DNA of 64,000 bases from Pycnococcus provasolii (lineage: Eukaryota > Chlorophyta > Pseudoscourfieldiophyceae > Pseudoscourfieldiales > Pycnococcaceae). Positions 203 to 29,455 of this stretch are shown piece after piece. The stretch's first letter is position 1, and each line of letters begins with the position of its first letter. The translations under genes were made by a program, and so were the position numbers. The notes below the pieces were generated by a model. That model saw only the letters and a program-made list of their open reading frames with translations. It ran no database searches and was not told the origin of the DNA. Location: positions 434,001 to 498,000 of the forward strand of contig OW568883.1 of NCBI GenBank assembly GCA_938743325.2, in the 5' to 3' direction.

Positions 203-3200
203 CTATCGTACATCCCAGACGCGAATGGTCGAGTCCCAGCCCGCGGAGACGATGCGCGCACCATCCGCGGAATACGATGCGGATGCCACCCCACTTGAAT
301 GACCTTCCAGCATAGATAAACACGCGCCGGTCGTCGCGTCCCAGATGCGAACGGTCTTGTCGTAGCTCGCGGAGACGATGCGCGTCCCATCCGCGGAATA
401 CGATGCAGAAAACACCGCACCAGAATGGCCTTCCAGCACAGATATACACGCGCCGGTCGTCGCGTCCCAGATGCGAACGGTCTCGTCCCCGCTCGCGGAG
501 ACGATGCGCGTCCCATCCGCCGAATACGATGCGGAAGTCACCACACTGGAATGGCCTTTCAGCACAGATATGCACGCGCCGGTCGTCGCGTTCCAGACGC
601 GAACGGTCTTGTCCTGACTCGCGGAGACGATGCGCGTCCCATCCGCGGAATACGAGGCGGATCTCACATAATTAGAATGGCCTTCCAGCACAGATATGCA
701 CGCGCCGGTCGTCGCGTTCCAGACGCGAACGGTCTTGTCGTAGCTCGCGGAGACGATGCGCGTACCATCCGCGGAATACGAGGCGGAAGTCACCCAATTA
801 GAATGGCCTTTCAGCACAGATATGCACGCGCCGGTCGTCGCGTCCCACACGCGTACACTCTTGTCGTAGCTCGCGGAGACGATGCGCGTCCCATCCACGG
901 AATACGATGCGGAAGTCACATAATTAGAATGGCCTTCCAGCACAGATATGCACGCGCCGGTCGTCGCGTCCCAGACGCGAACGGTCTTGTCGTCGCTCGC
1001 GGAGACGATGCGCGTCCCATCCGCGGAATATGATGCGGAAGTCACCACATGAGAATGGCCTTCCAGCACAGATAGACACGCGCCGGTCGTCGCGTCCCAG
1101 ATGCGAACGGTCTCGTCCCCGCTCGCGGAGACGATGCGCGTCCCATCCGCCGAATACGATGCGGAAGTCACCACACTGGAATGGCCTTCCAGCACTGATA
1201 CACACGCGCCGGTCGTCGCGTCCCAGACGCGAATGGTCGAGTCCCAGCCCGCGGAGACGATGCGCGTCCCATCCGCGGAATACGAGGCGGAAGTCACCGC
1301 TTCAGAATGGCCTTCCAGCACAGATACACACGCGCCGGTCGTCGCGTCCCACACGCGAACGGCATTGTCCTGGCTCGCGGAGACGATGCGCGTCCCATCC
1401 GCGGAATACGATGCGGATCTCACATAATCAGAATGGCCTTTCAGCACTGATACACACGCGCCGGTCGTCGCGTTCCAGACGCGAACGGTCTTGTCAAAGC
1501 TCGCGGAGACGATGCGCGTCCCATCCGCCGAATACGATGCGGATCTCACCCAACTAGAATGGCCTTCCAGCACAGATATACACGCGCCAGTCGTCGCGTC
1601 CCAGACGCGAACGGTCTTGTCAGAGCTCGCGGAGACGATGCGCGTCCCATCTGCGGAATACGAGGCGGAATACACCCGACCAGAATGGCCCTCCAGCACA
1701 GATAAACACGCGCCAGTCGTCGCGTCCCACACGCGAACGGTCTTGTCCTCGCTCGCGGAGACGATGCGCGTACCATCCGCGGAATACGAGGCGGAAGTCA
1801 CCGCTTCAGAATGGCCTTCCAGCACAGATAGACACGCGCCCGTCGTCGCGTCCCATACGCGAACGGTCTTGTCATCGCTCGCGGAGACGATGCGCGTCCC
1901 ATCCGCGGAATACGATGCGGAAGTCACCCAACTAGAATGGCCTTTCATGTTGTTCAATATCGTAGCATCAATATCCACGCGAGCAGGTATGCAAAGGCTC
2001 GGCGTACAAGACGATAGCACCCTCTGTCCTGGACTCTGATACCATGCACTCGTACACGGCACATTCGCGGCAATCACTTTAACCTGCGAATAATTCCCAA
2101 CTCCCCACCGAAGCACGCGAACAAAGGCATGCAGCGATTCCACGGTCGCCACCAACCCAGTAGCACTATCTGCCAACTTTTCCTTCGCTTCCAAAAGCGC
2201 CTTCTCGAGGCGCAGCAGTTCCACCACGAGCACGCCTCTTCGACCAGCATCCATCTGACGCTTCAACCACAGAGCCGCAAAGTGTGTCGCACACCAAGGT
2301 GACGCCTGATATCCCTCGGGCATCATGGACACCTCCTCTTGACGCCTCTCCACCAAAAACGCACCATGCCACTTCTTGACAACATCCATCAACAACGCCT
2401 CATCGTCACCATGCTGCATCCTCTCAACCGCTTCGGTCAAGTGCACGTGTGCATGTCGCAAGGAATACGCCACAGCCGGCCCCTTCTCGTCGTCGCCACA
2501 TTTCAGAACGTCCAGGCACGATCGCGCCAGCTCACGATGTCCACGAAACACGTCTGCTGCGTGCTCGCCTGATCGCTTCGTGTCTCCTAAAAACTCACGC
2601 AACGACAAGTGCAACGTCTGCAGCAGGTGATCGCGCTCTTCAAACAGCAGTCCCCAACCAGGTAGGTGCTCGCACGTCTCTCGCAAACGCAATCTATCAA
2701 CATGCGCCGACGAGAGAGGTTCACGCGAAGCGAGCACAATGTCAATCAGCCTACGAACTTCCTCGTCATCCTTCGGTGTGCGATCAAACCAAAGCTTATA
2801 CGCGGCATCGACATCCGCAGGTGGTTCCAAACTTGTGCCGTATCGCTTGACAAACTCGCGAGCAACAATCTGGTACACCTTTATGCTCTGCATGTTGCGC
2901 ATCGCCTCTTCCCAGGGTCCTAGAAGGCGACTCTCCTCCTTTTCCACTTCCACCGGGGCCGGTCCAAGAACCTGTGCAGGCTCCATCACGCGAATGCCGC
3001 TCTCCCAATCGTGCTCCAGCACGCGTCGACGAGGATAGTCACCATCTGCATCTGGGCGCGTCGTCACAAGCACAGAAACACTCGAGCGCACATCACGAGC
3101 GAGATGCCGAAGCAACCCGACTGCAGCATTGGAAATGTGCCGGTCATCGTCCGCCTCGTCGAGCGCATCCAACAAAATCACCGCATGCTTTTGAATTTTA

Positions 3201-4537
3201 GAAAGCTTTTTCAGCGGATCCACCAAAAGCGCGTTCACCGCGACATCTGGGTCGACGAGCGCCTTCGCGGCGGTATCTTCCTCCAGATCAATCAGGCATT
3301 CGCGAACAACGTCAAAGCGTTGACCAAGCTGAAAGCCAAGCGACCTCACCATCTCAAGCACATCCTGGCGCCTGACGTCAGCACGCTTGCAGAAGTGAGC
3401 CGCGTGAACCAAGTCGAGGGCCGCCGCAGCCACACTCGACTTGCCCTCTCCTGGTCCGCCAACGACGCATGCAAGACGTCCACCAGTCGATGTCATATGT
3501 GCACGCAGCTCCTCCAACTGGTACTTGTTGCTCTGTCCACGTTCTCGCAGCGCCTGCAAATCCGACTCGTAGCTCATCGGACGGAGCATGAAACGCAGCT
3601 TGAGCTCCTCCGTGAAGTGCCGCATGCTTGCAAACCTAAATTTTCCCGTGATCTCGCCGTGAATCATCTCCTTATCCGCGGGTGAAAAGCACTGCGCCGT
3701 CTCCGCGTCGATATTACGAATGTGCTGCGACACGTCCTTTTCTGAGAATCCGTGCGTGACGAGCTGCAGCTTCTGCGGTGGTGTCGACCCGATCTCGTAC
3801 AGGCACCACAACCTCGTCAACGGAATGACGCGATCTTTATCCAGCACGACGAGCGTTGCGCGAGACGTCGCTATCGTACTAGCGAGCGTGCGGCCGTCGT
3901 CGAGCTCTTTCATGGCCGAGAATACGCCGTCCGTATCGTCCTGGTTGATGGCGAATATGTCAAGCCACACGTACGTATCTGCTTGAGCAGCGCCTGCGAG
4001 TGCCCCTTTCACGCTCTCCACGAGGTCGACGAAAAGGCTGTTCCACGCGTGCGAAACGAAGTACGTCGGCGTGCCAACAGGAAGATTCTCGGCTTGCGCG
4101 TAGCTCATGTGCTCTTTGCGTGCCAGCGAACGCACGAAGCACTCGACGATATCCGTCGTGTACATCTGCTCGAACGGGATGTCGCGGTACTCCACCGGAA
4201 CCGGCTTGCCACTTTTTGTTTTTTCAGCCGCGCGTCGCTTATCGCGGTGCATCTCTATGTTATCAGACGTCACGATCAAGCTCGTATCTTTCCCACCACC
4301 ATCCTCCTCAGCCATGAACTCCTTGTTAACCTCCCAGCTTTGCGTCGTTCCGGCGTGCGCCTTAACAAACTGTGCAAGCCATGCGAGCGACACCGCGCGG
4401 CCGACGGGCGACTCGGACGCATATTCGGCCTGAGTCTTCCCATCATCGACGTCTTGCCTAGGTGGCTTGACTGGCAGCACCGTCGTCGGCCAGAGTTTTT
4501 CCTTGCGCGCCGTTGACGTCGATGCCGCACACCCCAT
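203..4537 (-). CDS. TIR-like / NACHT-type NTPase / WD40-repeat protein, NLR-like sensor
   Basis: 1444 residues in one open frame. The N-terminus begins MGCAAS, a good N-myristoylation plus palmitoylation signal, so the protein is probably membrane attached. Residues about 155-255 form a TIR-like domain with SHAW at 162-165, WLDIFAINQ at 191-199 and LWCLYE at 243-248. An NTPase module follows: Walker A GGPGEGKS at 360-367, Walker B AVILLDALDEADD at 452-464, then a VTTRPD sensor-like motif. Residues about 866-1444 are fourteen WD40 repeats of 42 residues. This order (effector-like domain, STAND NTPase, ligand-binding repeats) is that of NLR-type receptors and of fungal HET-NACHT-WD40 (NWD) proteins. 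By family knowledge the repeats would sense a ligand, the NTPase oligomerise and the TIR-like domain signal. That function here is inference; a dispensable or recently duplicated gene is also possible. Transcribed in the same direction as beta-tubulin. Confidence 0.85.
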   Translation of the reverse strand: MGCAASTSTARKEKLWPTTVLPVKPPRQDVDDGKTQAEYASESPVGRAVSLAWLAQFVKAHAGTTQSWEVNKEFMAEEDGGGKDTSLIVTSDNIEMHRDKRRAAEKTKSGKPVPVEYRDIPFEQMYTTDIVECFVRSLARKEHMSYAQAENLPVGTPTYFVSHAWNSLFVDLVESVKGALAGAAQADTYVWLDIFAINQDDTDGVFSAMKELDDGRTLASTIATSRATLVVLDKDRVIPLTRLWCLYEIGSTPPQKLQLVTHGFSEKDVSQHIRNIDAETAQCFSPADKEMIHGEITGKFRFASMRHFTEELKLRFMLRPMSYESDLQALRERGQSNKYQLEELRAHMTSTGGRLACVVGGPGEGKSSVAAAALDLVHAAHFCKRADVRRQDVLEMVRSLGFQLGQRFDVVRECLIDLEEDTAAKALVDPDVAVNALLVDPLKKLSKIQKHAVILLDALDEADDDRHISNAAVGLLRHLARDVRSSVSVLVTTRPDADGDYPRRRVLEHDWESGIRVMEPAQVLGPAPVEVEKEESRLLGPWEEAMRNMQSIKVYQIVAREFVKRYGTSLEPPADVDAAYKLWFDRTPKDDEEVRRLIDIVLASREPLSSAHVDRLRLRETCEHLPGWGLLFEERDHLLQTLHLSLREFLGDTKRSGEHAADVFRGHRELARSCLDVLKCGDDEKGPAVAYSLRHAHVHLTEAVERMQHGDDEALLMDVVKKWHGAFLVERRQEEVSMMPEGYQASPWCATHFAALWLKRQMDAGRRGVLVVELLRLEKALLEAKEKLADSATGLVATVESLHAFVRVLRWGVGNYSQVKVIAANVPCTSAWYQSPGQRVLSSCTPSLCIPARVDIDATILNNMKGHSSWVTSASYSADGTRIVSASDDKTVRVWDATTGACLSVLEGHSEAVTSASYSADGTRIVSASEDKTVRVWDATTGACLSVLEGHSGRVYSASYSADGTRIVSASSDKTVRVWDATTGACISVLEGHSSWVRSASYSADGTRIVSASFDKTVRVWNATTGACVSVLKGHSDYVRSASYSADGTRIVSASQDNAVRVWDATTGACVSVLEGHSEAVTSASYSADGTRIVSAGWDSTIRVWDATTGACVSVLEGHSSVVTSASYSADGTRIVSASGDETVRIWDATTGACLSVLEGHSHVVTSASYSADGTRIVSASDDKTVRVWDATTGACISVLEGHSNYVTSASYSVDGTRIVSASYDKSVRVWDATTGACISVLKGHSNWVTSASYSADGTRIVSASYDKTVRVWNATTGACISVLEGHSNYVRSASYSADGTRIVSASQDKTVRVWNATTGACISVLKGHSSVVTSASYSADGTRIVSASGDETVRIWDATTGACISVLEGHSGAVFSASYSADGTRIVSASYDKTVRIWDATTGACLSMLEGHSSGVASASYSADGARIVSAGWDSTIRVWDVR
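206..1942 (-). repeat. Tandem array of fourteen 126-bp WD40-coding units
   Basis: Thirteen full 126-bp units plus a 99-bp last unit (1737 bp exactly) encode WD40 repeats that are nearly identical in DNA as well as protein. Conserved blocks recur every 126 bp. Differences fall mainly at codons 4, 5, 7, 22, 23, 25, 26, 31, 38 and 42 of each 42-codon unit. Fourteen repeats fit two seven-bladed propellers. The low synonymous divergence suggests homogenisation by gene conversion or unequal crossing-over. Confidence 0.95.
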
Positions 4538-5298
4538 GGCCGGTCCCGTATGTCACTTGTGAGGGCGCTGGCAGGGTGGACGTTCGGGACCAATAGGGAG
4601 TACCTTATCACTTGTGGAGAGCACCGATAGTGGGAAACCAGCACGCTCAAGAATGGCGTTTTCTCGACCAAACCTCCCGTTCAAAACCTCAGAATTCCGG
4701 GGTTCTCAGGACTTTTCCCCCCAGTATATTGTCATGGTAATCTCAGTACTACATAAAAACGTCACACTCTCCGCCTCTCACCACCCACTTGTTCCATGCT
4801 CGAGAGAGTCACAGACACTCCACAACCAAAACAAAGCAAAACCGAAACCAAAGTAGGAAGAGAGCTCTGGAGAGAGAATATAGGCGGTGTTAAAATAACA
4901 CCAGTTTGTATTCACAGATCGTCACAAGTGAGCGGGCGGTCTCTTGACCACCCGAATCAACGTACAAAAACAGCGGTCAGCGGCCGCGAACTTGCACTCT
5001 TGCAAGCTCGCGGCCGGATGCATTCCAGCAAGTTAGTAGTGAGTACCGCGCGTCGACAAATCGGAGTCGTTGGGCGACCGAGTGTGCGAAGGAATGTGTG
5101 ACTACTCATGTGTGTCTTTTGATGATTTGGTTTTATATTTTTTTTGGAACAGGAGCCCACGATGGCAGGCCGCCGTAAGTTTTGTCATTACTCGCAGGTC
5201 GCGCAATGATGCATATAAATCTTCTTGAAATCTATGCGCGCCGGCAGATGAAGATTGAAAAAAGGAACTCTCACCTAAGAAGAAGTCTGGCAGGTGGC
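4538..5298. other. Intergenic region between the NLR-like gene and beta-tubulin
   Basis: About 760 bp holding the promoter side of the NLR-like gene and the 3' flank of beta-tubulin. Only short overlapping frames without family resemblance are present. No RNA gene or repeat was recognised. Confidence 0.6.
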
Positions 5299-7412
<2,114 letters not shown>

Positions 7413-8800: not shown

Positions 8801-10309
8801 ATGGTGTCGTCGGTGTCGTTGGCGGCCGCAAACACAGAATCAGCAGGTGGTGGTGGTGCCGGTGGTGGTGGTGCCGGTGCCGGTGGTGCCGGTGGTGGTG
8901 CCGGTGGTGGTGGTGCGTTGGGCTCAGATTCCTCAGCTTCTGCTCATGACACATCTTCCGAACTGCTCATCAAAAACTTAACGAGCTTGCACATGTTCAA
9001 CCACAAAGAATCGTCGTCGTCTGCACATGCACATGCACATGCACCTGCAACGACAACATCCACCCATTCTCGTCTCGGGTCGTCGTCGTCGACATCATCA
9101 TCATCATCATCATCATCGGCAGACTGCACAGCGCTCGACTTGCTGGCTGCTCGGTGGGGAGATAACGCCGACGACGTTGGTGACGCTCTGGCTCTTACCC
9201 TGGCTCTTAGCTTGCACAGTCCCTTGGGCAGCAGTCATCAACATCAACAACAACAACAACCAACCACACCACCACCACCACCACCCATCAAGAACCCGTT
9301 CCGCCTCGCCGACCTGCCTGACACCTCCACCATCTTCCAACAACAACAACAACAACAACAACAACAACCAACTCATCTTCTGCCGCAGTCGTCGCCGTTC
9401 CTTCGCGCGGAAGCGGAAAAGGAAAACACGACGAATGTCGGATCCTGGATCAAAAATACAGCCTTGTGGAAGCCGCCGTCAACACCACCTGACCCAAACG
9501 AAACATCGTCACCCACGTCGTTCTTCCGCACGCTGCAAACACAGCCGCCTCCCGCGAGGTTTCTGTCGCCTCTCGCGATGGGCTCACCACTTCCCGACGA
9601 CGCGTCGCCACCCGTCTCGCCCATATCCAGCGGAGGGTGCAGTGCCGTGGCCCACAACGACGTTGCGGCCGAGGCGAACGCCACCACGAAGCGAAGACTC
9701 TTCGACAATGACGACGACGACGACGACGACGACGACAGAAGATCGTCCAAGTCAGAGCACAGCACGACGTCGTACGAGGACTACTCTGTCTCTGCAAAAC
9801 ATCACAACAACAACAACATACCACGATCCCCAGTTCCGTGTCCCTTCTGCGGCCGACATCTCGTCGAGGACGAAGACTCGCCACGACAACAAGTACAGCA
9901 GCAACCACAGCAGCAGCAGCAGCAGCAGAAACCACCCACACCGTCGAGTCCCACGACCGTCTTGCCACCCTCGCAGCACACGTACTCGTTCAGCCCTGCA
10001 CGTGCATATCGTTGGCCGGAGGACAACAGCAAGGCCGTCATACCCACCACCACCACTACCGCCACCGCCACCGCCACCACCACTCCCATTCCCTTCACCG
10101 CCACCGCCACCATTCAGCCAAGCCCGTCCACTGTCTCGCTGACGTACCACAACAACAGCACCACCCCCACATCCACATCCACATCCACATCCACATCCAC
10201 GTCATCGTCATCTCCTCCGTACCCGAAGATTCACACGCTCCTGCGATCTCCGCAGCGCCTCGATCCCCCGGACTTTAATCGCCGCTTGAAGCGTATTCTC
10301 ACGCCATAG
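8801..10309 (+). CDS. Low-complexity polyQ/polyS protein with KEN-box and Cy-like motifs
   Basis: 502 residues from the ATG at 8801; a GTG codon just upstream is not used. The protein is mostly disordered, with Gly/Ala, Ser, Gln, Asp, Thr and Pro runs. Short ordered-looking motifs stand out: KEN at 207-209 (APC/C degron-like), a patch VGSWIKNTALWKPP after it, KRRLF at 297-301 (the RxL cyclin-docking pattern), many S/T-P sites clustered around 245-275, and a single CPFCGRH zinc-knuckle half at 347-353. The combination suggests a cell-cycle-regulated CDK substrate or regulator, which is inference only. The frame is long and uninterrupted and uses repeats in a consistent coding phase, so it is probably a real gene. 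No family was recognised. Confidence 0.65.
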   Translation: MVSSVSLAAANTESAGGGGAGGGGAGAGGAGGGAGGGGALGSDSSASAHDTSSELLIKNLTSLHMFNHKESSSSAHAHAHAPATTTSTHSRLGSSSSTSSSSSSSSADCTALDLLAARWGDNADDVGDALALTLALSLHSPLGSSHQHQQQQQPTTPPPPPPIKNPFRLADLPDTSTIFQQQQQQQQQQPTHLLPQSSPFLRAEAEKENTTNVGSWIKNTALWKPPSTPPDPNETSSPTSFFRTLQTQPPPARFLSPLAMGSPLPDDASPPVSPISSGGCSAVAHNDVAAEANATTKRRLFDNDDDDDDDDDRRSSKSEHSTTSYEDYSVSAKHHNNNNIPRSPVPCPFCGRHLVEDEDSPRQQVQQQPQQQQQQQKPPTPSSPTTVLPPSQHTYSFSPARAYRWPEDNSKAVIPTTTTTATATATTTPIPFTATATIQPSPSTVSLTYHNNSTTPTSTSTSTSTSTSSSSPPYPKIHTLLRSPQRLDPPDFNRRLKRILTP

Positions 10310-10812: not shown

Positions 10813-13197
10813 TCACATTCCTCTTGGTGTCACCGCACCACCAAATGCACCACCCCTAAAATTATTAAAGCTCGACGCCACCGCCTGTGCTCTGGCAACG
10901 TCGGCATGATCTCTCCTCCTAGGAGTTAAAATGCGTCGCTGCTCTTTTTGCCACGGCGTCTCCCTCTCCCTCTCCTCTCTTTCCCTCGTGCGACTCTTCA
11001 CCACACCGTGATACGCATCGTACCGTGGTCCTCCATCATCCTCCTTCTTCGGTGGACTTTTCGGGTAGTTGCTCTCAAAGAATGCTCTCGACTTCAGCTG
11101 ATGATCGGGAGTGGGAACTCTTCTGCCGTCGCCACCCATGCGCACGTACGTGTCGTGAATGTTCTCCCCCCTTGCCATCCTCCAGTCGTCCAGCAAGCTC
11201 TGCCCCGACGTGTCCGTCAGATCCTCACGAACGACATCCATATCCACGACGTGGTTCTGCCTAGGCTCCGCGTTGTACTTTCGACGCTGCGTCGTGTTAC
11301 GCTGGCTCAAGTCTATGTTCGTGATGTCCGAACTTCTCAGCATCGCGGCAAACTCGTCCGCGCTGATTCTCCCGTCACCATCCTCGTCACACTTCTGCAC
11401 AATCCTCTCCAGATCCTCAGGATCAATGTCAATGTGAGCAGCCGCGCACACCATGGGCAATTCGTGCGCATCCAAAAACCCGCTGCGGTCGGCATCCACC
11501 TGCTGAAACGCGCGACGCAGCGACTTCCCGTCCACCTTCACGCTATCCTTGAAGCCGCGCATGAAGCTTCCAGGCTTGTACATCTCGTCGCCGTACCGCA
11601 CCAGGCAGGCATCCACCAGCGTATTCCTGCTGATTCGTCCGATGTTTTTGGGATCCAGGTGACGAAGAAGAGCCTTGCGATCGCGTGCCGTGCACACCAC
11701 ATTCAGCTGCTCCAACCGACGGAACAGGTCGTCGTGCTTCAGCCAGCGAGCTCCACCCATGAACCTGCCAAAAAACGCGTGCGCCGCGGCAAACTCACCC
11801 TGCCCCGTGTTGCTCTGCGTCAGTCCGGTAATCTTATCCTGCAGCTGAGCCAGCACGCCGCTCGCGCCGACGTGAGGGTCGTACTCGCTCTCCGGCTTGC
11901 GCCGAATCGGAGCCGCGCGACGTCGCATGAAGTTCTCCAAGATTCCTCGGCTCTCGCCAGCCGCAGCGCGCGCATCCGCATCAGCGCGCGCCGAGGCGTT
12001 CGCGTCCGCCTGCGCCACCGTGAGTAGCCGACTTACCTCGACCTCACGCTCTCCCACGCAAGCCTTGGCAGCCTGCGCAAATCCGAGGTCGTGGCAAGCT
12101 CGCTCCGCGCGAACGGCGTCGACATAGCCGTGCTCGTCAATGCCAATCTCCTCATCCAGAACATCCTCCAACGCAATCACGCGCTCAGCCGCGTGGCTGT
12201 CGAGGCGCTGACGGAGCGCGTCGCGCGCCGTGAGGAAGTCGCGAGGGAGCACGCTGTCAACAAATCGGCGCCCGTCAATGCCCCCGGGACGTGCGTACCG
12301 CCGCACGAGCGCGACGAGCTCGAGATTCGTCGCCTCCACGCCGAGGTTGTTGAGTGCATCCCTCAGCACGCTCGTTGCATCGCCGCCACCGCTTAGACTT
12401 TTCAAGACATCACGCCGGAATTTCGACGCAGCTGCTCGACTTCCCTGCTCCAGCTTGGACGTCACCGCCGCCTCGAGCTCGGGCGGCGCGCGCGCGTGGC
12501 GTGCCACAGCCTCGCGACGCGCCACCTCCTTGGCCTTCGCTTGGTGCATCGCGTCGCGCTCCTCCTTGCGCCGATTTGACGCTTTCTCCAACTCCGTGCC
12601 AAAGCCAACCTCGTTGACGTCCAGCATGCGTGCGAGGTCATTAAATGTGAGACCGCCCCCATTGTTGTACTCGCGAAGCAGATTTGCCACCAGACGCGGG
12701 TCCGGATCATCGCCAGACTCGTCGACGAGAAGATCTGCAAGCTCCTGCGCCTCGAGACGTCCCGTCTTGTTGCGATCGAATGTGCGAAATGCAGAACGCA
12801 CGCTTCCGAAGCGATTCTCCAGGCGCAGGCGAAGTTGCGTGGCATTGAGCTCGCGCGGGGGCGTCGACCGAACATTTGCGGCACCTGATGCAGCAGCAAG
12901 AAAGCCACGAAAGTCCATCTCCACTTCCCCAGATTTTGTGTGCGCGGCAAACAATTTGCGAATCACGCTCATGTCGTGGTCGTACCCAAGCATTTCCACC
13001 GCGCTCGCAAACTCGTCGAACGTGAGTGCACCCTTTCGATCGGCGTCGCACAGGCGAAAGGCACGACGCACTGCAAGCGCACCACCACCCCCGTGCGTTG
13101 CTGGCTCCGCAGGTGCCGGATCGAGTCTTGCGTGCATGTTGCGTCGCGTTTGGTTTTGAAGGAACGCGCTGAAGTCGTTCACGTTCATGTTGTTGCT

Positions 13198-13230
<33 letters not shown>

Positions 13231-14157
13231 ATCGTTGCCCGCATTTGTCGCACGTTTCGATGCCGCTGCTGGTCGTGGCGCACCCCAAGCGATGGTGGAG
13301 TTGCCTCCTGCCGACATGTCGACGGTGCGGTCGCGGTACACGATGCGCCTAACAAAGTCGTCATAGTCGAGGTGCCCCCCTGTTCCTGCGTACGCACGAA
13401 AGAACGTGTCCGTTTGCGTTTCTGTCAGTCCGAGAAGAAATTCGGAGAGCGCGAGTCGAAATCGCCTTGCATCCACGAAACCCGTTCGTCCTGGGTCTGC
13501 TCGACGAAAGGCACTGAGCAGCTTAGTGAGACACGCCGTTGACCCCGCGCTGACGTGCGTCTTCTGTTTGCACTTCGCGAGCAGGAGTTCGTCCGCCGCG
13601 ACGCGTCTGCCGTGCACCGCAAAGTGAGGAACAGGCACCCGCCTCGGGCCGCGTTCCGTCTGCGCGCCTCTGGCCGTCCTTGATTTTGTCGGCGGCGCAG
13701 GTTGACGAGAGGCAGCTTGGTGCACGGCCGTCGTCGTTGGACCTGTTTCACGGCCACGCTGGTCAACGAAAGTCTCATGTTCTGCCGTCGTTGTCTTCGG
13801 TTGGTTGCACATCGCCTTAAGTTGTTCTGTATTTTTCGCGACTCGTCTTTGCGTTCCTCCTCTGGGTGTGGTGACGACCCCACCTAACGCGGCGTTTCCG
13901 AATACGACCGCGCCATCCTGGATAAGCTGCGTGGCCTGTTCTCTCACTAAATTGGATAACGACGCTAGCTTATCAAGCGAAGTCACAGGCATAAATGAGG
14001 ACGAGTTAGACGAGCCTGATCGTCCTCTTCCCGAGGAAATCAATGCAGAGGTCATGAGTGCGTCACAGGCGTGTTCACGCAACAATATACGTTCGGCCTT
14101 GGCCACCACACGAGACGACCGAGACATGTTCTTGGAAGCTGTTGTTGTTGTTGACAT
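10813..14157 (-). CDS. Large multi-EF-hand calcium-binding protein
   Basis: 1114 residues from the ATG at 14157. At least four EF-hand loops match the consensus: DADRKGALTFDE (about residue 370), DRNKTGRLEAQE (about 460), DADRSGFLDAHE (about 888) and DEDGDGRISADE (about 924). The last two form a classic pair, so calcium binding is likely. Degenerate EF-like units occur near 220 (DPGRTGFVDARR) and between 600 and 850. Other parts are charged and helical, with an Asp run near 310 encoded by GAC repeats. Such long EF-hand proteins are common among algal flagellar and signalling proteins, but no specific orthologue was recognised. Faces the RCC1/BTB fragment tail to tail. Confidence 0.8.
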
Positions 14158-17098: not shown

Positions 17099-18144
17099 GA
17101 AAGCCACGAGCACGCAGCACGCAAGGGACGACGTTGACTGCTTGCACACTGCTCTTGAGAAGAATGAACATTGTGGTGGCCGGAGCTTAACAACGAACTT
17201 TTGGGCCCCCGGGGTATCCTGGCACCCGCTAAAATACCCGGGGAGGGGGAGGTTAACCGGTCGGGGAGGGGTTAGAGCCAAGCCCTTCTCAAGGGAGAAA
17301 ATAAAATACTCAAAATAGGTCCAGATTGGGAGCAACTCCAGAATTGGTCGACAGAATTGGTCGGGGGACTAATTTAAGGTAGTAATTTTTCGGGACCCAC
17401 TTTGGACCTATTTTAGCCTAATAAAGTTTAGACTGATAGACTGATAATACAGTAGAGAGCCTGATAATAAAGCCATAAAGGTAGGACTATCCTACGGGTA
17501 CAGGAGAGCCGTGCTTAGAGGGGGAGCCGAGGAGGTGCCACCTGTCCCGTCTTCCGAGGTGCAAAACCGGCCGCGCCGCCGCCGCGAACGAGGAGTGCCT
17601 GTTGGAGTACCTCGTAAAACTGTTCCTGCAGACTCCAGAGGGAAGAGGCACAGCGTGCGAGTAGCTTAGAGCCTTAGACTATCGTGGAGGAGGAAGAGAG
17701 TCCGTCGAATACACAAGGTACCTAACGTTATATTTATTTTTTAGGCCTGTCCTGTCTGCCTAGCACAATAAATGTGTGTGTCACCACCACCGGCCACCGC
17801 AAGCCGTCTCATCAGAGCACTAACCTTTACGATAAAATCATCGACTAAGGTTAGGCTGAGCGCCTTGCCTGGCAAGTGGCACCTACCGTAGGACGTAGGT
17901 GGCCTCACTACGATAGTCTAATCAGGCGAACAGGTGATTTTGTTTCTTTCTTACTGGCACCTGGGATTATGATTAGCTCGTGGAATCATCAGGCAGGCAG
18001 GCAAGCCAAGCCGCGCGGAGGACGGAGGACGGAGAAAAAAAAAAAAGAGTTATGAGTTTTCCGTTTGGGAGATTTCAGTTTTTCCGAATTTCCGAATTCA
18101 TCCTGGGAACCCAATTTTATTTTTATTTTTTATTTTATTTTCTG
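17099..18144. other. Intergenic region, no gene seen
   Basis: About 1 kb between divergent genes. It contains CTGATA-type short repeats near 17430-17470 and a stretch at 17740-17935 dense in CCTA/TAGG words and imperfect inverted repeats (for example CACCTACCGTAGG followed by CGTAGGTGG). An AT-rich segment at 18100-18143 just before the next start looks like 5' UTR. Confidence 0.5.
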
Positions 18145-21100
18145 ATGGCGACGACGATAGGTATGTTAGGCTTGTTAGCACGTGCTATGACGGCGGCGGC
18201 GGCCACATTCCCATTCACATCTTCACCTTCACCTTCAACGGCAGCTGCACCGGCCGCCCCGTTTCGGAGAAGAAGAAGAAGAAGAAGAAGAAGAAGAAAC
18301 TTGTTGGCGTTGACGGACTCCCTCCGTCTTCTCGTCGTACTCACCGCTTTCGTCGCTTGTGCTGTATCTCCTCGTGGAGCACTCGCACAAACTCCTGCTC
18401 CTACTTCAGAAACGAAAAAGATGCGCGTCGACAAGTTCGTCGAGTCTCTGCCGTGCTACAAAGATAAAGATAAAAATAATACGTGCACTTGCACTGAAAT
18501 TAAGCCACTGCCTGGCATCACCGTCACGGGAAAACTCAAGCTGCTTGGCGACAAGCTCGCGAAGTGCGAAAACCTTCTCGTCGTTGACATTGCAAAACAA
18601 AAGTTGTCTGGCTGGCCGTCCAACATCACACTACCCAACGCGACACGCGTGCTCTGGCTGCAGTCCAACAACCTCGACGGCGACATCAACGAGTTTCCCA
18701 AGCTGTGGAAGCTGCCGCCGAACTTGGAGTCGCTTCGCCTGGATGATAACAAGATCACGGGTACCATGAACGCATCCGTGTGGTCAGGCGTGCTGCCTAT
18801 TGGCATTCGCGCCATTGACCTGTCTCTCAACGACGTGGGAGGAGAGCTGAGCGAAGCGTGGTGCGAGCTGCTCCCACAGATCGCCTCGTTCTCGGTCACC
18901 AACATGAAGGCCATCTGCGGGCCCATCCCACCGTGCCTGAATGGCTTGCAGTATGCGGGCACGTCCGCCTTCTTCGAGGACGAGGCTGACTTCGCGGCAG
19001 GCACGAAGTACGGCTACTGCGACGACGATCGTCCCACCTGCGATGAGAAGGATGGCTGCGACATCTTCGTGAACCCTATCAGCAACTCTCGAACGCACTT
19101 TGAGTTCAACTTCACGGAATTCAAAACGCTGAGAGGTATTCGGATTTACACGTGGGCGCTCGAGTACCAGATGTTGAACGGCGGCTGGGACATCATAGGC
19201 AAGGGGTACGAAACGTTCTGGCCGATCGAGCCGTTGCCACAGGGATTCACCATCGTGGGCGGCGGCGAAGCGCCGCTGTACAAGGGGCGCGAATTCCGCG
19301 CGCGCCTCACGCTCCCTGGCGTGGAACTGCTCAACGGCGGCCGCTACCGCGTGAAGATTCGCGCGCTCTCCAGGGCCGGGCCACCCAAGACCAAGGTGGA
19401 GAATTCCGACGCGTTCATGGTGGACACGGAGCCGCCGTCCATGGGAATCGTCAATGACGGCGTGTTGTGCGACACGGACGCATTTCAGATGCAGAGCAAT
19501 GCGTCGTCGCGGAGCAGCGGCACGGCTCTGAACGTGATCACGGCGCTGACAACTCAGAAGCTTCGCGGGTGCTGGAGCGGATTCCGCGACTCTGGGTCTG
19601 GAATCGTGTCGTACCGCGTGCGCCTGCTGAGGCGAAATAACATCGTAGGCCAGTCTTCCACAGAAGTTTGTTCCATCACCTGCCTGGTGTCAGAGAAGGT
19701 GTGCAGCGGGAAGATGGAGCAAAGTCCGCGCAGCCTTCTGGCAGAACACGACGCCGAAGCCACTTGTATATCGTTCGAGTTGAACGCTTCGAAAGGATCT
19801 ATGGTTTTGGAGTACTCGAATCACAGGGATGGCGATGAAATCTACTTCGGCGTGTCCGCGACTGACGGAGCGGACTTCCCATCCGTCGAAGTGCAGTCGA
19901 ACGGATATCGTGTGCGCCTGCCCACTTCAGAAACAGCTGAGATTGTCAAGATCGCGGCATTCGCGGCGGCGCCGATTGGATTTGTGCTGTTTATGGCGCT
20001 TGTCGTCGCGACGGTCATCATTCGAAGGCAGGCTAAGAATATGAAAATGGCGGAAAGGTTGCGGCAACGTCAAGCGGATGCAGAGGCTATCACAACTGCG
20101 CTGCGCGAGCTGAACCAGACAGTCACGGCCAATTCGCTGTCAATAAGTGTGCCGATGTCATTCACATCCAACCCAGGCCAAACTGACATGGTGTTTGTCG
20201 TGACCGATCTCGAAGGCTCGACGCCAATGTCCGCCTCGAATGGGAAGGCGGCAAAGGAGGCGCAGCGAGTTCACGATAATGTGATGCGGCGTGCTCTGCA
20301 GCAGCATGGTGGGTTGGAAATCGCCACCCAGGGCGACTCCTTCGAGCTGTGCTTCGCGAGCGTCTCCGCGGCTACGAAATTCTGCCTGGATGTGCAGAAG
20401 CGTCTGTCCGAGCACGAATGGACAAAGGAGGTGCTCGCGCTGCCGTACTGCGAAGCAATGTACACCGAGGATAGGCAGCTCGTACGCGTCGGCCCGCGCG
20501 TTCGCATGGGAATTCACTACGCAAAAGCTGGCACCTTCGAGCGCAAGGTGAATGACTTCACAATGACTGTGGTATTCACGGGACCGGGCTACGACCTGAC
20601 CACATTAGTGTCCGATGCCGGCGCTGGTGGGCAGATCCTGCTTACCGAAGCGGCGGTCGCCCATCTCGACTGGTCAAGCGCGGGATTCCCCCTCGTCTCG
20701 AGCATTGGTGCGTTCGAGCCGGAGGATGCCAATGACGACAATTCAACGCCGATTGACCTATACAGTGTGACACCTGGACTAGGGTCGACGATGTATTCTC
20801 AAGAGTTTGACACGGCTAAGCTTCGTGGTATGAATCGTATTGCACCGGGAACAGGTTTGAACATGAGCAGGCTGTCGCCGGATGATGTGAGAGCGATTGT
20901 TTGCGTTCGCTTTGGTTTCACGCCGGCAAGGCTGCCGCTGCAGGTGTTCTCGTACATCATGTGCGCCGTCTCGCAGATCTTCGGCGGCAAGGTGCTTCAG
21001 TGCATCACAAATCCGGAGACAGTCATCGTGGCATTCGAAGAAGAAAAGGCAAAGTCAGGCGCTGCCGTTGGCTGCGCTTGCGCGCTGCAGGTGGCAATGT

Positions 21101-22575
21101 ACCACTCCGTGCTGCGACACGATGTTGCGATCGGCGTGCACTACTTTCCTGGCGGGTTTGCGGCTCGCGAAGCGCCAGGCGAGGCTTTCGTGCCGCTCAG
21201 GCACACCACAGCCATGCCCATTGTCAACAGGGCAAACACCATACGTGCGCTTGGACGAGTGCTATCTTCGGGCAGCAGAACTCCAAGATCGCCGCACAGC
21301 GGTAGTTTTGGCGCCGAGGGCTCTTCTTCGACCAGCGGCGGTGGGAGAACGCCAAACTCGCGCGATAATCGCTTGTCGTTCATGGAAGTGCTCAGCAAGG
21401 GATCGAATGTTGTGATGAGGATTGTGCTTGACAAGGCGGCGGTTGACCAGGCGATTCATCTGTCTCGTATTGCGAACCTTGGTCAGACGTTGCTATCGCA
21501 GGCAGCTTGGGAGGGGATGACCACACCTGTGCTCGCTCAAGCGCGTGCGCTTGGCACATATGTTCTGGAGGAGGAGGAGGAGGAGGGGGCCGATGGCGGA
21601 CAGCTGCTAGTGGAGGTCATGCCGCTCGAATTTGCCTCCAAGACGTTTCCACAGCTGTCCACTGCGCACCACGTGGGTAAGGGTTTCTACGACTCACCCG
21701 ACGTCGAGGCTGGCGTTGCGATCGTCTTCTGTCGCTGCTTTGCGGACGAGAGCGGCGCAGTTCCGCCGAAGAATCTTGAGTTGTGGAGTCGACTCTGCCG
21801 CGAGCAGGTGGAACGGTGGGACGGATACTGGTGCAAGGAGGTGACCGGCGGTAAGTTCACACTGTCTTTCCAAAATCTGAATCAGGCGGTGGCATGCTGC
21901 TGCAATATGCAAATTGCTCTCGCGGAAACTGAATGGCCCGTTGCCATGAAGTACGCCGCAGACGAGTCGTCTTCCGAGAGTTCCGAGTGGCGAGGATTAC
22001 GTGTTGGCATGGGCATCGCATTTGGCACCGACTGCTATCGCAAGGCTCTTGCCTCTGGCCGTGCGGACTTCTTTGGCGCCATCCCGAACACAGCGGCGCG
22101 CGTGATGGGCCAGGCTGCCGCCGGCCGCGTACTTCTTATGGGCGAGGTGGGCGAGTGGGGTGAATGGAATGCGGACCTAAGCAGTGCAACTCTTAATGCC
22201 AAGACAGCTGATGGCATGAGGCATATGGAGTTGAACGTGATTCCCGTCGGATACTGCGACTTGAAGGGCGTGGGACCTACACATCTGTGTTCGGCATACG
22301 TCGATGCACTTGCTGACCGCAACTTCCCGCCTCCGAAATCTCTCATTGTTGACGGACCTGAAACAGCTAGGTTAAACAGGTCAAAGAGTCGAGCCAACAA
22401 CACGGGTGCTGCTCCACGAACACCGTGGAGTGCCAGATCAGGAGCGTCAACCGCGACAGTGGCGTCTTCGGTGTCGGGAGACCACTTCCGTGTACGGCCA
22501 CTTGAGGAGATTGTGACTACTAGAAGTGGAGGTGTTGTAGATGTTGGTGACGTCGAATTGTCATCAGAACAATGA
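18145..22575 (+). CDS. Receptor-like LRR protein with transmembrane helix and three class III cyclase-homology domains
   Basis: 1476 residues if started at the ATG at 18145; an in-frame ATG at 18052 lies in AT-rich sequence that looks untranslated. A basic run and a hydrophobic segment ending GALAQ act as signal sequence or anchor. The ectodomain has leucine-rich repeats (about 125-250) and a Cys-containing region. A transmembrane helix spans about 600-628. Domain 1 (about 680-870) has the cyclase hallmark VVTDLEGST and the second metal site ATQGDSFELCF, but its Asn/Arg motif is lost. Domain 2 (about 914-1110) is degenerate. Domain 3 (about 1188-1385) lacks the metal aspartates but keeps PNTAARVMGQ. 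Known class III nucleotide cyclases work as dimers that share these residues. cAMP or cGMP synthesis in response to an external cue is inferred. Confidence 0.8.
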   Translation: MATTIGMLGLLARAMTAAAATFPFTSSPSPSTAAAPAAPFRRRRRRRRRRRNLLALTDSLRLLVVLTAFVACAVSPRGALAQTPAPTSETKKMRVDKFVESLPCYKDKDKNNTCTCTEIKPLPGITVTGKLKLLGDKLAKCENLLVVDIAKQKLSGWPSNITLPNATRVLWLQSNNLDGDINEFPKLWKLPPNLESLRLDDNKITGTMNASVWSGVLPIGIRAIDLSLNDVGGELSEAWCELLPQIASFSVTNMKAICGPIPPCLNGLQYAGTSAFFEDEADFAAGTKYGYCDDDRPTCDEKDGCDIFVNPISNSRTHFEFNFTEFKTLRGIRIYTWALEYQMLNGGWDIIGKGYETFWPIEPLPQGFTIVGGGEAPLYKGREFRARLTLPGVELLNGGRYRVKIRALSRAGPPKTKVENSDAFMVDTEPPSMGIVNDGVLCDTDAFQMQSNASSRSSGTALNVITALTTQKLRGCWSGFRDSGSGIVSYRVRLLRRNNIVGQSSTEVCSITCLVSEKVCSGKMEQSPRSLLAEHDAEATCISFELNASKGSMVLEYSNHRDGDEIYFGVSATDGADFPSVEVQSNGYRVRLPTSETAEIVKIAAFAAAPIGFVLFMALVVATVIIRRQAKNMKMAERLRQRQADAEAITTALRELNQTVTANSLSISVPMSFTSNPGQTDMVFVVTDLEGSTPMSASNGKAAKEAQRVHDNVMRRALQQHGGLEIATQGDSFELCFASVSAATKFCLDVQKRLSEHEWTKEVLALPYCEAMYTEDRQLVRVGPRVRMGIHYAKAGTFERKVNDFTMTVVFTGPGYDLTTLVSDAGAGGQILLTEAAVAHLDWSSAGFPLVSSIGAFEPEDANDDNSTPIDLYSVTPGLGSTMYSQEFDTAKLRGMNRIAPGTGLNMSRLSPDDVRAIVCVRFGFTPARLPLQVFSYIMCAVSQIFGGKVLQCITNPETVIVAFEEEKAKSGAAVGCACALQVAMYHSVLRHDVAIGVHYFPGGFAAREAPGEAFVPLRHTTAMPIVNRANTIRALGRVLSSGSRTPRSPHSGSFGAEGSSSTSGGGRTPNSRDNRLSFMEVLSKGSNVVMRIVLDKAAVDQAIHLSRIANLGQTLLSQAAWEGMTTPVLAQARALGTYVLEEEEEEGADGGQLLVEVMPLEFASKTFPQLSTAHHVGKGFYDSPDVEAGVAIVFCRCFADESGAVPPKNLELWSRLCREQVERWDGYWCKEVTGGKFTLSFQNLNQAVACCCNMQIALAETEWPVAMKYAADESSSESSEWRGLRVGMGIAFGTDCYRKALASGRADFFGAIPNTAARVMGQAAAGRVLLMGEVGEWGEWNADLSSATLNAKTADGMRHMELNVIPVGYCDLKGVGPTHLCSAYVDALADRNFPPPKSLIVDGPETARLNRSKSRANNTGAAPRTPWSARSGASTATVASSVSGDHFRVRPLEEIVTTRSGGVVDVGDVELSSEQ

Positions 22576-26767: not shown

Positions 26768-28838
26768 TCAGTACCCATTCATCCCCCAGTAGTTGCTAGG
26801 CGCACCGCCACCACCACCTTGTTGGCCGCCGACACCACCACCACCGCCGCCACCCATGTCACCTCCTCCGCCACCGTATCCTCCGTATCCACCGCCACCG
26901 TATCCGCCGCCACCGCCACCACCACCACCACCACCACCACCGTATCCGCCGCCGCCGCCGCCGCCAAAGCCTCCGTATCCGCCATATCCACCTCCGGGCA
27001 TCACATTCTGCCTCTTGCCACCTCCGCCATCGCCACCCATGGCAGGGTCGTAGCTTCGGCGACCTGCTGCATGCTGCTGATGTCCGCCCATGCCCATGCC
27101 CATGCCCATACCCATGCCGCCGCCGCTAGCGGCATCTGGCTTCGGCTCCATGGGTGGGAAGGGATTCTTGTCCTCCTTCAGCTTTGCGATGCCGTCGATG
27201 AGCTCCCTGCTTGCAACAGCGAAGTCCACGGGACGAGCTTCCACCACCGTTGTCTTCTTGCGCATCTCGCCATTCCACGAGTCTTGGAAAACCTTCAGCT
27301 TCATGTTCCACATCTTCATCTGGGCATTTTTCAGCGTGACTTCCCACGCGTCGGTGTCCTTGAGATTGTTCATCTCCTCCGCCTTCAGGCCAATCAGCGT
27401 TTCGCCAGCCTCCGTGAATGTGGACACGTGGTGCGTCGTCGTGTGGTCCAAAACCTTCAGGTTGAACAGGTACCTCCAGCTCGGACACTCGTGCACCTGC
27501 ATGCACCTCTCGCATCGCCACTGGCCGTTGCCCTCGTCGGTCAGCTTCTTGTTGCACTGCTTGCCCGCCTCCGTGATCGTCGGGCATCCAGGGTACATCA
27601 GGCCACGATCATCTGATATGCCGTGGATGCGAACGCGCGATTCTACGTAATGTGGACCGTTTCCGTCGTCCGCGAGACCCTCGTCGTCGATCTGCGCGAG
27701 GCTGATGCGTCGCGTGCTGCGCCCACCTCCACCTCCGCCACGCGGCATTGTCAGCGCGGTACCAGTCTCGTTCTTGCCCGAGACGTCGTACCACTGTCGA
27801 ATGTCAAGAGCCTGGGGAAGCACATCGGGCAGCGGATCCACGAATAGCTGAGACGACTGCAGCGTGCTGAGGTTGCGTCCGCTGAACTCGCCAACTTTCA
27901 CATCCTTTACCGCAAGCACCGGATGGTTGCCCGCGGTGACCATCTGCTCAATTTGCGTGCCCGCGTCTGTCGCCTGCTTGCCCCAGAGCGTAACCTCAAT
28001 CGAATAGCTCGACGGGTCCTTGATGGTGATCGACCTCTTCGTCGTCTCCGTCCCATTCTTCAGCATGATTGGCACGAGCGGGTCCACCGTCTCGACGACG
28101 CCCGCGACGTCGACGAGCGTGCCAAGTTCGCGGTTCTGCACGTCGGCGATGGCGGTGATGCGCCAGTTCACCTGCGCGATGGAGTTGGACCCTCCATCCT
28201 CTGCGCACTCCTCCACGAGCGCGGTAGCCTCGAGCCCAATCTCGTAGTCGCTGTTCAGGTTGTTGAACTGCTTCCTCTTTGGCTTCAGGGTGCCCTTGGA
28301 GATGATGTACACCTTTCCCATCTCGATGACCGGATCCCAGCGATCCGCCGCATCGTTGAAGCACGTCGCGCGAATCTCGCCGCCGTCGGCGTCGAGAAGG
28401 TCGAAGGAGAATACCTTGCCCTCACCGCGCGCGTTGGACCAGCGTCGCACTTCCTGCTTTTTCGTCACACGCGCCTTGATGGTCCACCGATTCTGGAAGG
28501 GGTTGAGCGACCTGATGGGCATGACGCGCGCCGGCGCCTCGTTGCGCGCCGTCGGACCACCCTGCCTGTTGTACGTGTACCGTCCCGCAGGCTCCGACTT
28601 CTGCTGCTGCTGCTGCTGATACATGCCGCCGCCATTGTCGTAGGGATTCGGAGGCATGCCTCCACCGCCGTACGGATTCGGAGGCTGGTTGGGAGGCGGG
28701 CCTCCACCGTACGGGTTCATGCCTCCATACGGGTTCGCAGGCTGCTGCTGCTGTGGCGGTCCGTTGTTGTACCCTCCGTAACCTCCATAGGGATTTTCAC
28801 CTCCTCCTCCGCCGCCGCCACCACCGTAGGGATTTGGT

Positions 28839-28871
<33 letters not shown>

Positions 28872-29455
28872 CCCGCCGGCGCTGGCGCAGCGGCGTACGG
28901 GTTCGGTCCTCCGCCGTTTCCTCCGTACGGATTTGCGGGCGGTGGTGCGTTTTGGTTTCGAACATGGATCGGCTCACCGGGCAGTTCCGGCAATCCCTGC
29001 TTCGCACGTTCTGTCCCCTGCTGCTGGTGCGCGATATGGAATCCGGGAAAGTCCAAGCAGAGCGGCACGTCCGTCCACGGCGGGTGCGCCCTGAGACCGA
29101 CGGTGTGCACGTCTGTGACGAAGTGGACCGCCTTATCGCCGTCTCCATACTTCTGGCACTCCATGATGCGCAGGAGCGTTCCGTGCATAATTTCGTCGTT
29201 GTGCACGCGTTCGTTGAGGTCAGGCGCGATGAAGACGGGCGCACTGTTGGTTCCGTCGAAGAGTATGAGCCTGAATCGCGTTGGCGCGTTGGAGTTGGGC
29301 ACGGTGATTTGTGCGATCTGTAGGCATTGCACGATGGGGTAGGTACCTGATGTGGCTTGCGGCGAGCACGACTTGGTGATTGTGTTCAGCACGGCGACGA
29401 GGCCGTCAGGCGTCAGGGAGGAGGAGGAACCGTCGCCTTCCATGAGGGACGTCAT
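26768..29455 (-). CDS. RPA1: Replication protein A large subunit (RPA70)
   Basis: 895 residues from the ATG at 29455. Binds single-stranded DNA in replication, repair and checkpoint signalling as part of the RPA heterotrimer in the nucleus. An N-terminal OB fold (about 1-120) is followed by an unusually long linker (about 170-300) of NPYGG-type repeats and polyQ. DBD-A begins near SLNPFQNRWTIKARV, then DBD-B and DBD-C. The DBD-C zinc ribbon is present (CPTITEAGKQC, then WRCERC), with about five extra residues between the first two cysteines compared with human RPA70. The last ~95 residues are a Gly/Tyr-rich tail ending SNYWGMNGY that standard RPA1 lacks. Plant RPA1 paralogues can carry C-terminal extensions, but of a different (zinc-knuckle) type. 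Confidence 0.93.

Follow-up and report, generated by a model that had tools for sequence, protein, structure and literature searches.

Analysis of a 64-kb stretch of the genome of the green alga Pycnococcus provasolii (GenBank assembly GCA_938743325.2, contig OW568883.1, positions 434,001–498,000; hereafter the window) revealed a gene that probably codes for an NWD receptor of the NLR type (STAND), one of a set of intracellular sensors of non-self that carry a TIR-type effector and have diversified like fungal NWD proteins. The gene is a single open reading frame (ORF) on the minus strand, with its ATG at 4537 and its stop at 203, and encodes 1444 amino acids. An initial annotation had reported this ORF without its strand, and had likened its logic to that of the fungal NWD receptors HET-D and HET-E; the comparison gains support from the repeats, which vary at the fungal sites. 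Ten proteins of Pycnococcus and Pseudoscourfieldia (P0002–P0011; P numbers denote outside proteins, L numbers loci and C numbers contigs) covered 95–100% of the N-terminal 860 residues at 78–91% identity. Among 12 copies in the own genome, the ratio of nonsynonymous to synonymous differences (pN/pS) was 0.17 in the TIR-like part and 0.26 in the NTPase part, which indicates purifying selection; on both grounds the ORF is not a chance one. The own genome searched comprised 32,333,900 bases in 46 contigs, with the window on contig 23 (C23); the published assembly of P. provasolii CCAP190/2 consists of 44 chromosomes, a mitochondrial and a plastid genome (PMC11130579, partial text).

TIR-fold domain, NTPase and N-terminus

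All the motifs named in the initial annotation (MGCAAS, SHAW, the WCLYE of LWCLYE, Walker A and Walker B) could be located, and a TTRP sensor motif was found besides (Table 1). The Pfam model NPHP3_N (PF24883) matched the NTPase with an E-value of 1.6e-14 and 54.9 bits against a cut-off of 24.8. The STAND motif set was complete, with Walker A, a Walker B containing DxxDE and a TTRP-type sensor, and the NTPase residues G, G, K, S, D, D, E, T, and R were invariant in a 26-row alignment (A3). The window protein scored below the cut-off of the Pfam NACHT model itself; the NACHT domain of the initial annotation is a NACHT-related STAND NTPase. The NTPase is followed by a winged helix and a helical arm in an Apaf-1-like manner, and the predicted STAND fold is nearer to STAND than to ORC/Cdc6-type AAA proteins.

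The TIR fold of residues 155–322 was supported by an AlphaFold2 (AF2) model, by VIA-align and by hhalign alignment to TIR_2. The best structural matches in VIA-align included SARM1, AbTir, and plant TIRs, and also MyD88 and other adaptor TIRs. In the hhalign alignment, the W244/E248 pair fell on a TIR_2 motif whose W place is occupied by W, Y or F, and the spacing of W and E in WCLYE equals that of the TIR ligand-binding residues W71 and E75 (numbering from PMC7075850, partial text). W244, C245, and E248 were invariant in a 26-row alignment (A1) and identical in 12 of 12 own copies. The domain may thus be a TIR-type effector with E248 as its predicted catalytic residue and a putative enzyme activity. 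In an hhalign control, the domain profile scored 32.8 against the NTPase alignment, above shuffles; the 16 aligned columns were residues 330–345, which both alignments contain, and the score was therefore taken to reflect this overlap, not a spurious match.

Further searches were mostly negative. The HET domain is reported to be TIR-related (PMC4986451), and three of 14 homologue domains matched HET weakly (best E 0.098), the window protein giving no match. Against NCBIfam the N-terminal part yielded one weak, meaningless match and against PADLOC none; a sequence search of the PDB gave one chance match for the N-terminal part (E 1.2) and none for the NTPase piece, while the TIR-like domain profile found one weak match among PDB sequences, PdTIR 3h16 (E 0.097). 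Own-genome searches for HET and SEFIR were empty, and were uninformative since their controls were equally empty. DUF4062 (PF13271) had no own-genome match, with its control positive in three of 14 genomes. PF01582 TIR had one, on a different contig from the window, and TIR_2 had 18, of which 16 exceeded the cut-off and none lay at the 12 receptor loci.

The TIR-fold domain could instead be a non-enzymatic oligomerisation or adaptor module, as in MyD88, signalling via other proteins that carry the same domain. Not all TIRs hydrolyse NAD+ (PMC9153377, partial text), and the human TIR-like DUF4062-NACHT protein TEP1, an active NADase, was the sole active one of four such proteins tested (PMC13174449, partial text). 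In the own genome, 13 further loci matched the TIR-like part alone at 36–40% identity, besides shorter fragments, and the one of this second group that was scanned (L057, C1:1101000–1104200) carries NPHP3-type TPR repeats and a hydrophobic C-terminus. The adaptor TIRs among the structural matches point the same way, whereas the invariance of W244, C245, and E248 and the matches to SARM1, AbTir, and plant TIRs point to an enzyme. An adaptor role seems to us rather unlikely, and it is compatible with the receptor reading preferred here. The domain of L057 had 126 matches, with TPR, ankyrin or EF-hand as partners; among the 120 listed were choanoflagellates, chytrids, oomycetes, and a diatom. L057 appears to stand to the window gene as NPHP3 stands to NWD1. 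Separately, C44:34983–35588 and C44:38802–39197 apparently belong to one open frame of 2099 amino acids that combines a SHAW-type TIR-like domain with an ordinary TIR_2 domain.

An MGC[AG][AS]S start was observed in 10 of the 12 own-genome copies and an EF-hand-like start in the other two, whose counterparts P0008 and P0010 are matched by Pfam EF-hand models. The MGC start could also be seen in the Chlamydomonas relatives P0045, P0048, and P0049. MGCAAS is a motif which we take to be a candidate signal for N-myristoylation plus S-acylation, and the receptor may accordingly be anchored to a membrane through its acylated start.

Hypervariable WD40 repeats and turnover of their codes

The fourteen WD40 repeats counted in the initial annotation were recovered by Pfam (14 stretches), by a repeat script (14 YSxDG repeats at an exact 42-amino-acid spacing) and by Tandem Repeats Finder, which gave an array at 213–1944 with period 126, 13.7 copies, and 89% matches. 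C-terminal leucine-rich repeats (LRR) of the plant TIR-NB-LRR type were absent, the C-terminal part being WD40 throughout according to Pfam and the script. Internal repeat conservation in the window gene was 88.9% over 126 amino acids, and the mark of 85% over at least 100 amino acids was reached by 10 of 11 frame-intact WD40 copies, L049 standing at 73%. Repeats with such internal conservation made up 0.4% of the Viridiplantae repeats in a survey (PMC4986451).

A total of 130 repeats was detected, of which nine irregular ones were dropped to leave 121 from 11 own-genome copies; shortened last repeats were excluded from the codon counts, and the window gene contributed 13. The highest amino-acid change was observed at repeat positions 5, 23, 4, 7, and 25. 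Positive selection acts in Podospora on repeat codons 7, 9, 25, and 27, with a conserved residue between the two members of each pair (PMC1805685, partial text); these codons correspond to positions 5, 7, 23, and 25 here, which flank V6 and D24. By the same spacing, the seven sites used for classing fungal repeats (10, 11, 12, 14, 30, 32, and 39; PMC12222747, partial text) become 3, 4, 5, 7, 23, 25, and 32, and all five of the top variable sites fall inside this set (chance 2.5e-5). The numbering offset was fixed via the conserved V and D and the variable positions had been seen before the fungal look-up; the test therefore rests on the spacing pattern.

The four fungal-derived codons ranked third among 111,930 four-site sets by amino-acid change. 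Their pN/pS was 1.41 (gene bootstrap, n = 60, 5–95% 1.28–1.67) versus 0.41 at the other 38 codons, a rough value because it comes from a simple site count and not a tree-based likelihood test, and because these codons also had more synonymous differences than the rest (pS 0.40 versus 0.16 elsewhere). The window gene alone gave 1.91 versus 0.37, with the four-site set at rank five and position 25 in sixth place, behind position 38. When the near-duplicate L040 was removed or distinct repeats only were counted, the ratio became 1.45 and 1.46, respectively, both at rank three. There were 96 distinct four-residue codes in the 121 repeats, and 12 in the 13 of the window gene. Codons at position 4 ended in T in 109 of 121 repeats, with all four bases represented at their first two places, giving much amino-acid and little silent change. 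Targeted adenine mutation of the retroelement type was rejected, since codons at every variable position can begin with any of the four bases.

Counterpart genes were compared in six pairs, two with another P. provasolii record and four with Pseudoscourfieldia marina (NCBI proteins, species names as in the sources), the comparison covering copies with a clear counterpart. The pairs shared 91.5–96.9% identity over the N-terminal 880 residues and 91–98% in the repeat frameworks, yet their codes matched at 1.15–1.91 of four residues, versus 1.24–1.97 with shuffled repeat order. An identical code was found in one of 63 aligned counterpart repeats, the two repeats of the L040/P0002 pair lying outside this count. 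The match of L048/P0010 was slightly above shuffled (1.44 versus 1.36) and that of the other five pairs below; those five are mutual best matches and L048/P0010 is not. As a positive control, the in-genome pair L039/L040 had 12 of 14 codes identical. Detected repeat numbers differed in six of six pairs, as counted by a script that misses irregular repeats (L046: 13 versus 14 in Pfam). Repeat identity was 0.832 (amino acid) and 0.877 (nucleotide) within genes and 0.821 and 0.864 between genes; framework pS was 0.141 within and 0.178 between genes, versus 0.257 in the N-terminal part. The near-equal identities and lower framework pS are suggestive of repeat exchange among loci.

Allorecognition could give rise to such a pattern if the receptor sensed variable proteins of other strains during mating or cell fusion, as HET-D and HET-E sense HET-C. 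The architecture, the variable codons, and the internal repeat conservation are as in those proteins, and codes differ between the two P. provasolii records, with one identical code in the 11 aligned repeats of L044/P0004. However, HET-D and HET-E act in fused fungal cells, and pathogen sensors would give the same pattern; we regard allorecognition as unlikely. Less likely still is a non-immune STAND regulator whose repeats grew by slippage and whose four-position variation reflects relaxed constraint on surface loops. Tandem 126-bp arrays are slippage-prone, some repeats are irregular as noted, and in one of the 12 copies the frame is lost within repeat 1, but pN/pS above 1 at the four codons, the loss of codes in counterpart genes that keep their framework, and the position-4 bases, which are better explained by selection on the amino acid than by drift, stand against it.

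Gene family, duplications and neighbouring DNA

The 12 own-genome copies, which include the window gene, shared at least 82% identity across the greater part of the N-terminal 860 residues. In the C33 copy (L041) the frame is broken within WD40 repeat 1 and further repeats lie in a different frame, and one copy on C7 (45% identity) ends in ankyrin repeats. Outside this genome, 49 proteins matched, from Pycnococcus and Pseudoscourfieldia among others; four came from Chlamydomonas and Volvox, three of them starting with MGC. The database names of P0002–P0016 ('EF-hand domain-containing protein', 'dynein assembly factor') look misleading, even for copies with an MGC start.

Inverted copies of the 5' part and upstream DNA lay beside the gene at four of the 12 receptor loci, with 99.6–100% identity and ends at different codons. 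The window arms are 99.7% identical over 3726 bp, and the arm outside the window holds the 5' part of the receptor gene; L040 has an inverted copy of 74 bp only, and at seven other receptor loci none was found within the fetched stretch. Inside the 64-kb window, no inverted repeat above 100 bp was found. An inverted copy as a second gene, a source of hairpin RNA or the end of a mobile element was rejected, as the arms extend into the neighbouring gene. A segmental inverted duplication is simpler, since the arms run into that gene and stop at 6380. The neighbouring gene is presumably beta-tubulin. The arms of the window pair are not quite identical, differing at a few bases, which makes an assembly error unlikely there; at L045 and L048, where the pairs are 100% identical, such an error is indistinguishable from a true duplication here.

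Seven short copies of the receptor 5' end were dispersed on C5, C31, C4, C15, C3, C13, and C2, with similar scores, and the four compared were 98.7–99.5% identical. The C5 copy is bounded by long terminal inverted repeats with a 9-bp target duplication, and in this it resembles a Mutator-type element that carries a gene (Pack-MULE). Flanking DNA in common with the element was found at two full-length loci, L049 (705 bp, 96%) and L040 (225 bp, 85%), and one flank of L041 has the terminal repeat of the short mobile copies. That mobile DNA drives the spread of the family, its copies being cargo of Mutator-like elements and mostly passengers, as these copies and flanks might suggest, is very improbable, given the strong coding constraint and terminal repeats that occur at the short copies and the broken C33 copy and not at the window gene or the other full-length loci fetched (fetched flanks searched). 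Two inverted stretches of about 70 bp in the window (8846–8916 and 10044–10112) recur on many contigs and are perhaps the ends of a small dispersed element.

Table 1. Features of the receptor gene, its duplicated copies and the neighbouring ORFs (window positions unless a contig or locus is named)
Feature	Position	Strand	Basis or remark
Whole gene, TIR-fold / STAND NTPase / WD40 receptor, 1444 aa	203..4537	-	ORF, Pfam, homologues
MGCAAS start, res 1-6, candidate N-myristoylation + S-acylation signal	4520..4537	-	Sequence
TIR-fold domain, res 155-322	3572..4075	-	AF2 model, VIA-align, Foldseek (weak), hhalign to TIR_2
SHAW motif, res 162-165	4043..4054	-	Alignment; aligned with ISH of TIR_2 domains
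WCLYE motif, res 244-248	3794..3808	-	Alignment; E248 = predicted catalytic Glu
NPHP3_N (NACHT-related STAND) NTPase, res 345-494	3056..3505	-	Pfam PF24883
Walker A GGPGEGKS, res 360-367	3437..3460	-	Sequence
Walker B AVILLDALDEA, res 452-462	3152..3184	-	Sequence
TTRP sensor motif, res 492-495	3053..3064	-	Sequence
Winged-helix + helical arm, res 521-860	1958..2977	-	Placed as between Apaf-1 NTPase and WD40 part
14 WD40 repeats of 42 aa, res 866-1444	206..1942	-	Variable at repeat positions 4, 5, 7, 23, 25
Arm of recent inverted duplication	2655..6380	.	Other arm outside window, C23:429117-432841
Inverted copies at L045	1-1986/5187-7172
Inverted copies at L048	79-1450/5030-6401
Inverted copies at L039	1-765/4936-5700
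Short copies L054, L061	C5:563000-568500
Short copies L053, L060	C31
EF-hand protein ORF	10813-14157
Guanylate cyclase-like ORF	17980-22575
RPA large-subunit-like ORF	26768-29455
PI3/PI4-kinase + FATC protein ORF, 4047 aa	33194-45337

Proposed mechanism and relation to known receptors

Several points weigh against an immune-type receptor. The VIA-align Z-score of the TIR part was below 8, which according to the tool may reflect merely a common arrangement, and Foldseek gave no match at E of 0.001 or below (best E 0.014). The Pfam models TIR, HET, and DUF4062 did not match the N-terminal part of the window protein, nor did TIR_2 and SEFIR. Thus, of the TIR-like domain that the initial annotation had seen at residues 150–260, the fold was upheld as a prediction but membership of these Pfam families was not, and because no such model matches, the domain was filed as a separate TIR-fold family and not under Pfam TIR or TIR_2. 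The raised pS at the four codons also counts here, and the agreement with the fungal sites could in part arise because some surface positions of WD40 repeats are freer to vary than others.

In the mechanism that we infer, including its enzyme activity, membrane location, ligand, oligomerisation, and defence role, the WD40 sensor would hold the Apaf-1-like NTPase in an ADP state at rest. The acylated MGC start would anchor the receptor to a membrane, and in two copies the EF-hand-like start would tie it to calcium. A non-self molecule that fits the upper side of the WD40 propellers, where the variable residues lie, would trigger nucleotide exchange and formation of a wheel that gathers the TIR-fold domains, and these might consume NAD+ or nucleic acid via E248, leading to shutdown or death of the cell. 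The repertoire would be kept by repeat copying among loci, with selection altering four or five surface residues per repeat. A bolder proposal, which we hold tentatively and think somewhat likelier wrong than right, is an anticipatory-style repertoire: about 12 TIR-STAND-WD40 genes would trade blades while selection rewrites four to five surface residues per blade, so quickly that counterpart genes in sister strains share almost no code, and inverted duplications and Mutator-like elements would go on copying and scattering the effector end.

Among the closest known systems are HET-D, HET-E, and HET-R (HNWD) of Podospora anserina, which have the same order of effector (the TIR-related HET), NACHT, and WD40, high internal repeat conservation, a genomic family of ten, repeats similar across loci, and selection at the codons given above (PMC1805685, partial text). 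The window protein differs from them in having no Pfam HET match, an NPHP3_N-type NTPase, an MGC or EF-hand-like start in its family, no known incompatibility, and a green algal host. Human TEP1, NWD1, NWD2, and NPHP3 likewise join a TIR-like domain to a NACHT-type NTPase, several with WD40, and the pairing of a TIR-like domain with TPR_NPHP3 in the second algal family recalls NPHP3; however, their TIR-like domain is DUF4062, unmatched in the alga's genome, and the available part of the source describes no hypervariable repeat family (PMC13174449). Algal NB or NACHT domains with WD40 occur in Chondrus crispus (TIR-NB-WD40, with TIR in 23 of 58; PMC7145615) and Chlamydomonas (NACHT-WD40; PMC4773052), and the parts of these two papers available do not describe hypervariable, internally conserved repeats.

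Plant TIR-NB-LRR proteins (RPP1, RUN1) share the TIR fold with a predicted catalytic Glu and the STAND NTPase, but unlike the window protein they have an LRR sensor and an NTPase of the NB-ARC class. Apaf-1 has a CARD instead of a TIR-fold domain and, to our knowledge, no variable family. The architecture by itself is therefore not new, given Chlamydomonas NACHT-WD40, red-algal TIR-NB-WD40, and human TEP1. A fungal-style hypervariable repertoire in a green alga was not found in the searches of the open-licence PMC literature, and the genes of this family were not named in the titles or abstract openings of the papers listed there.

If the reading is true, the alga would have the first hypervariable NWD repertoire of the fungal style in Viridiplantae, as far as the literature searched shows. 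A TIR-type effector would then be joined to an Apaf-1-like chassis in a green lineage that branched early, away from the LRR design of land plants, and a fungus and a green alga would be using the same four WD40 surface positions as their variable face, through either shared NWD ancestry or convergence. For the question of how single-celled phytoplankton recognise viruses, parasites or foreign cells, the family offers a concrete, testable candidate, with a dozen near-identical receptors whose specificity code can be read, in a genome that is small and finished. It suggests that planktonic algae may maintain a changing repertoire of recognition proteins.

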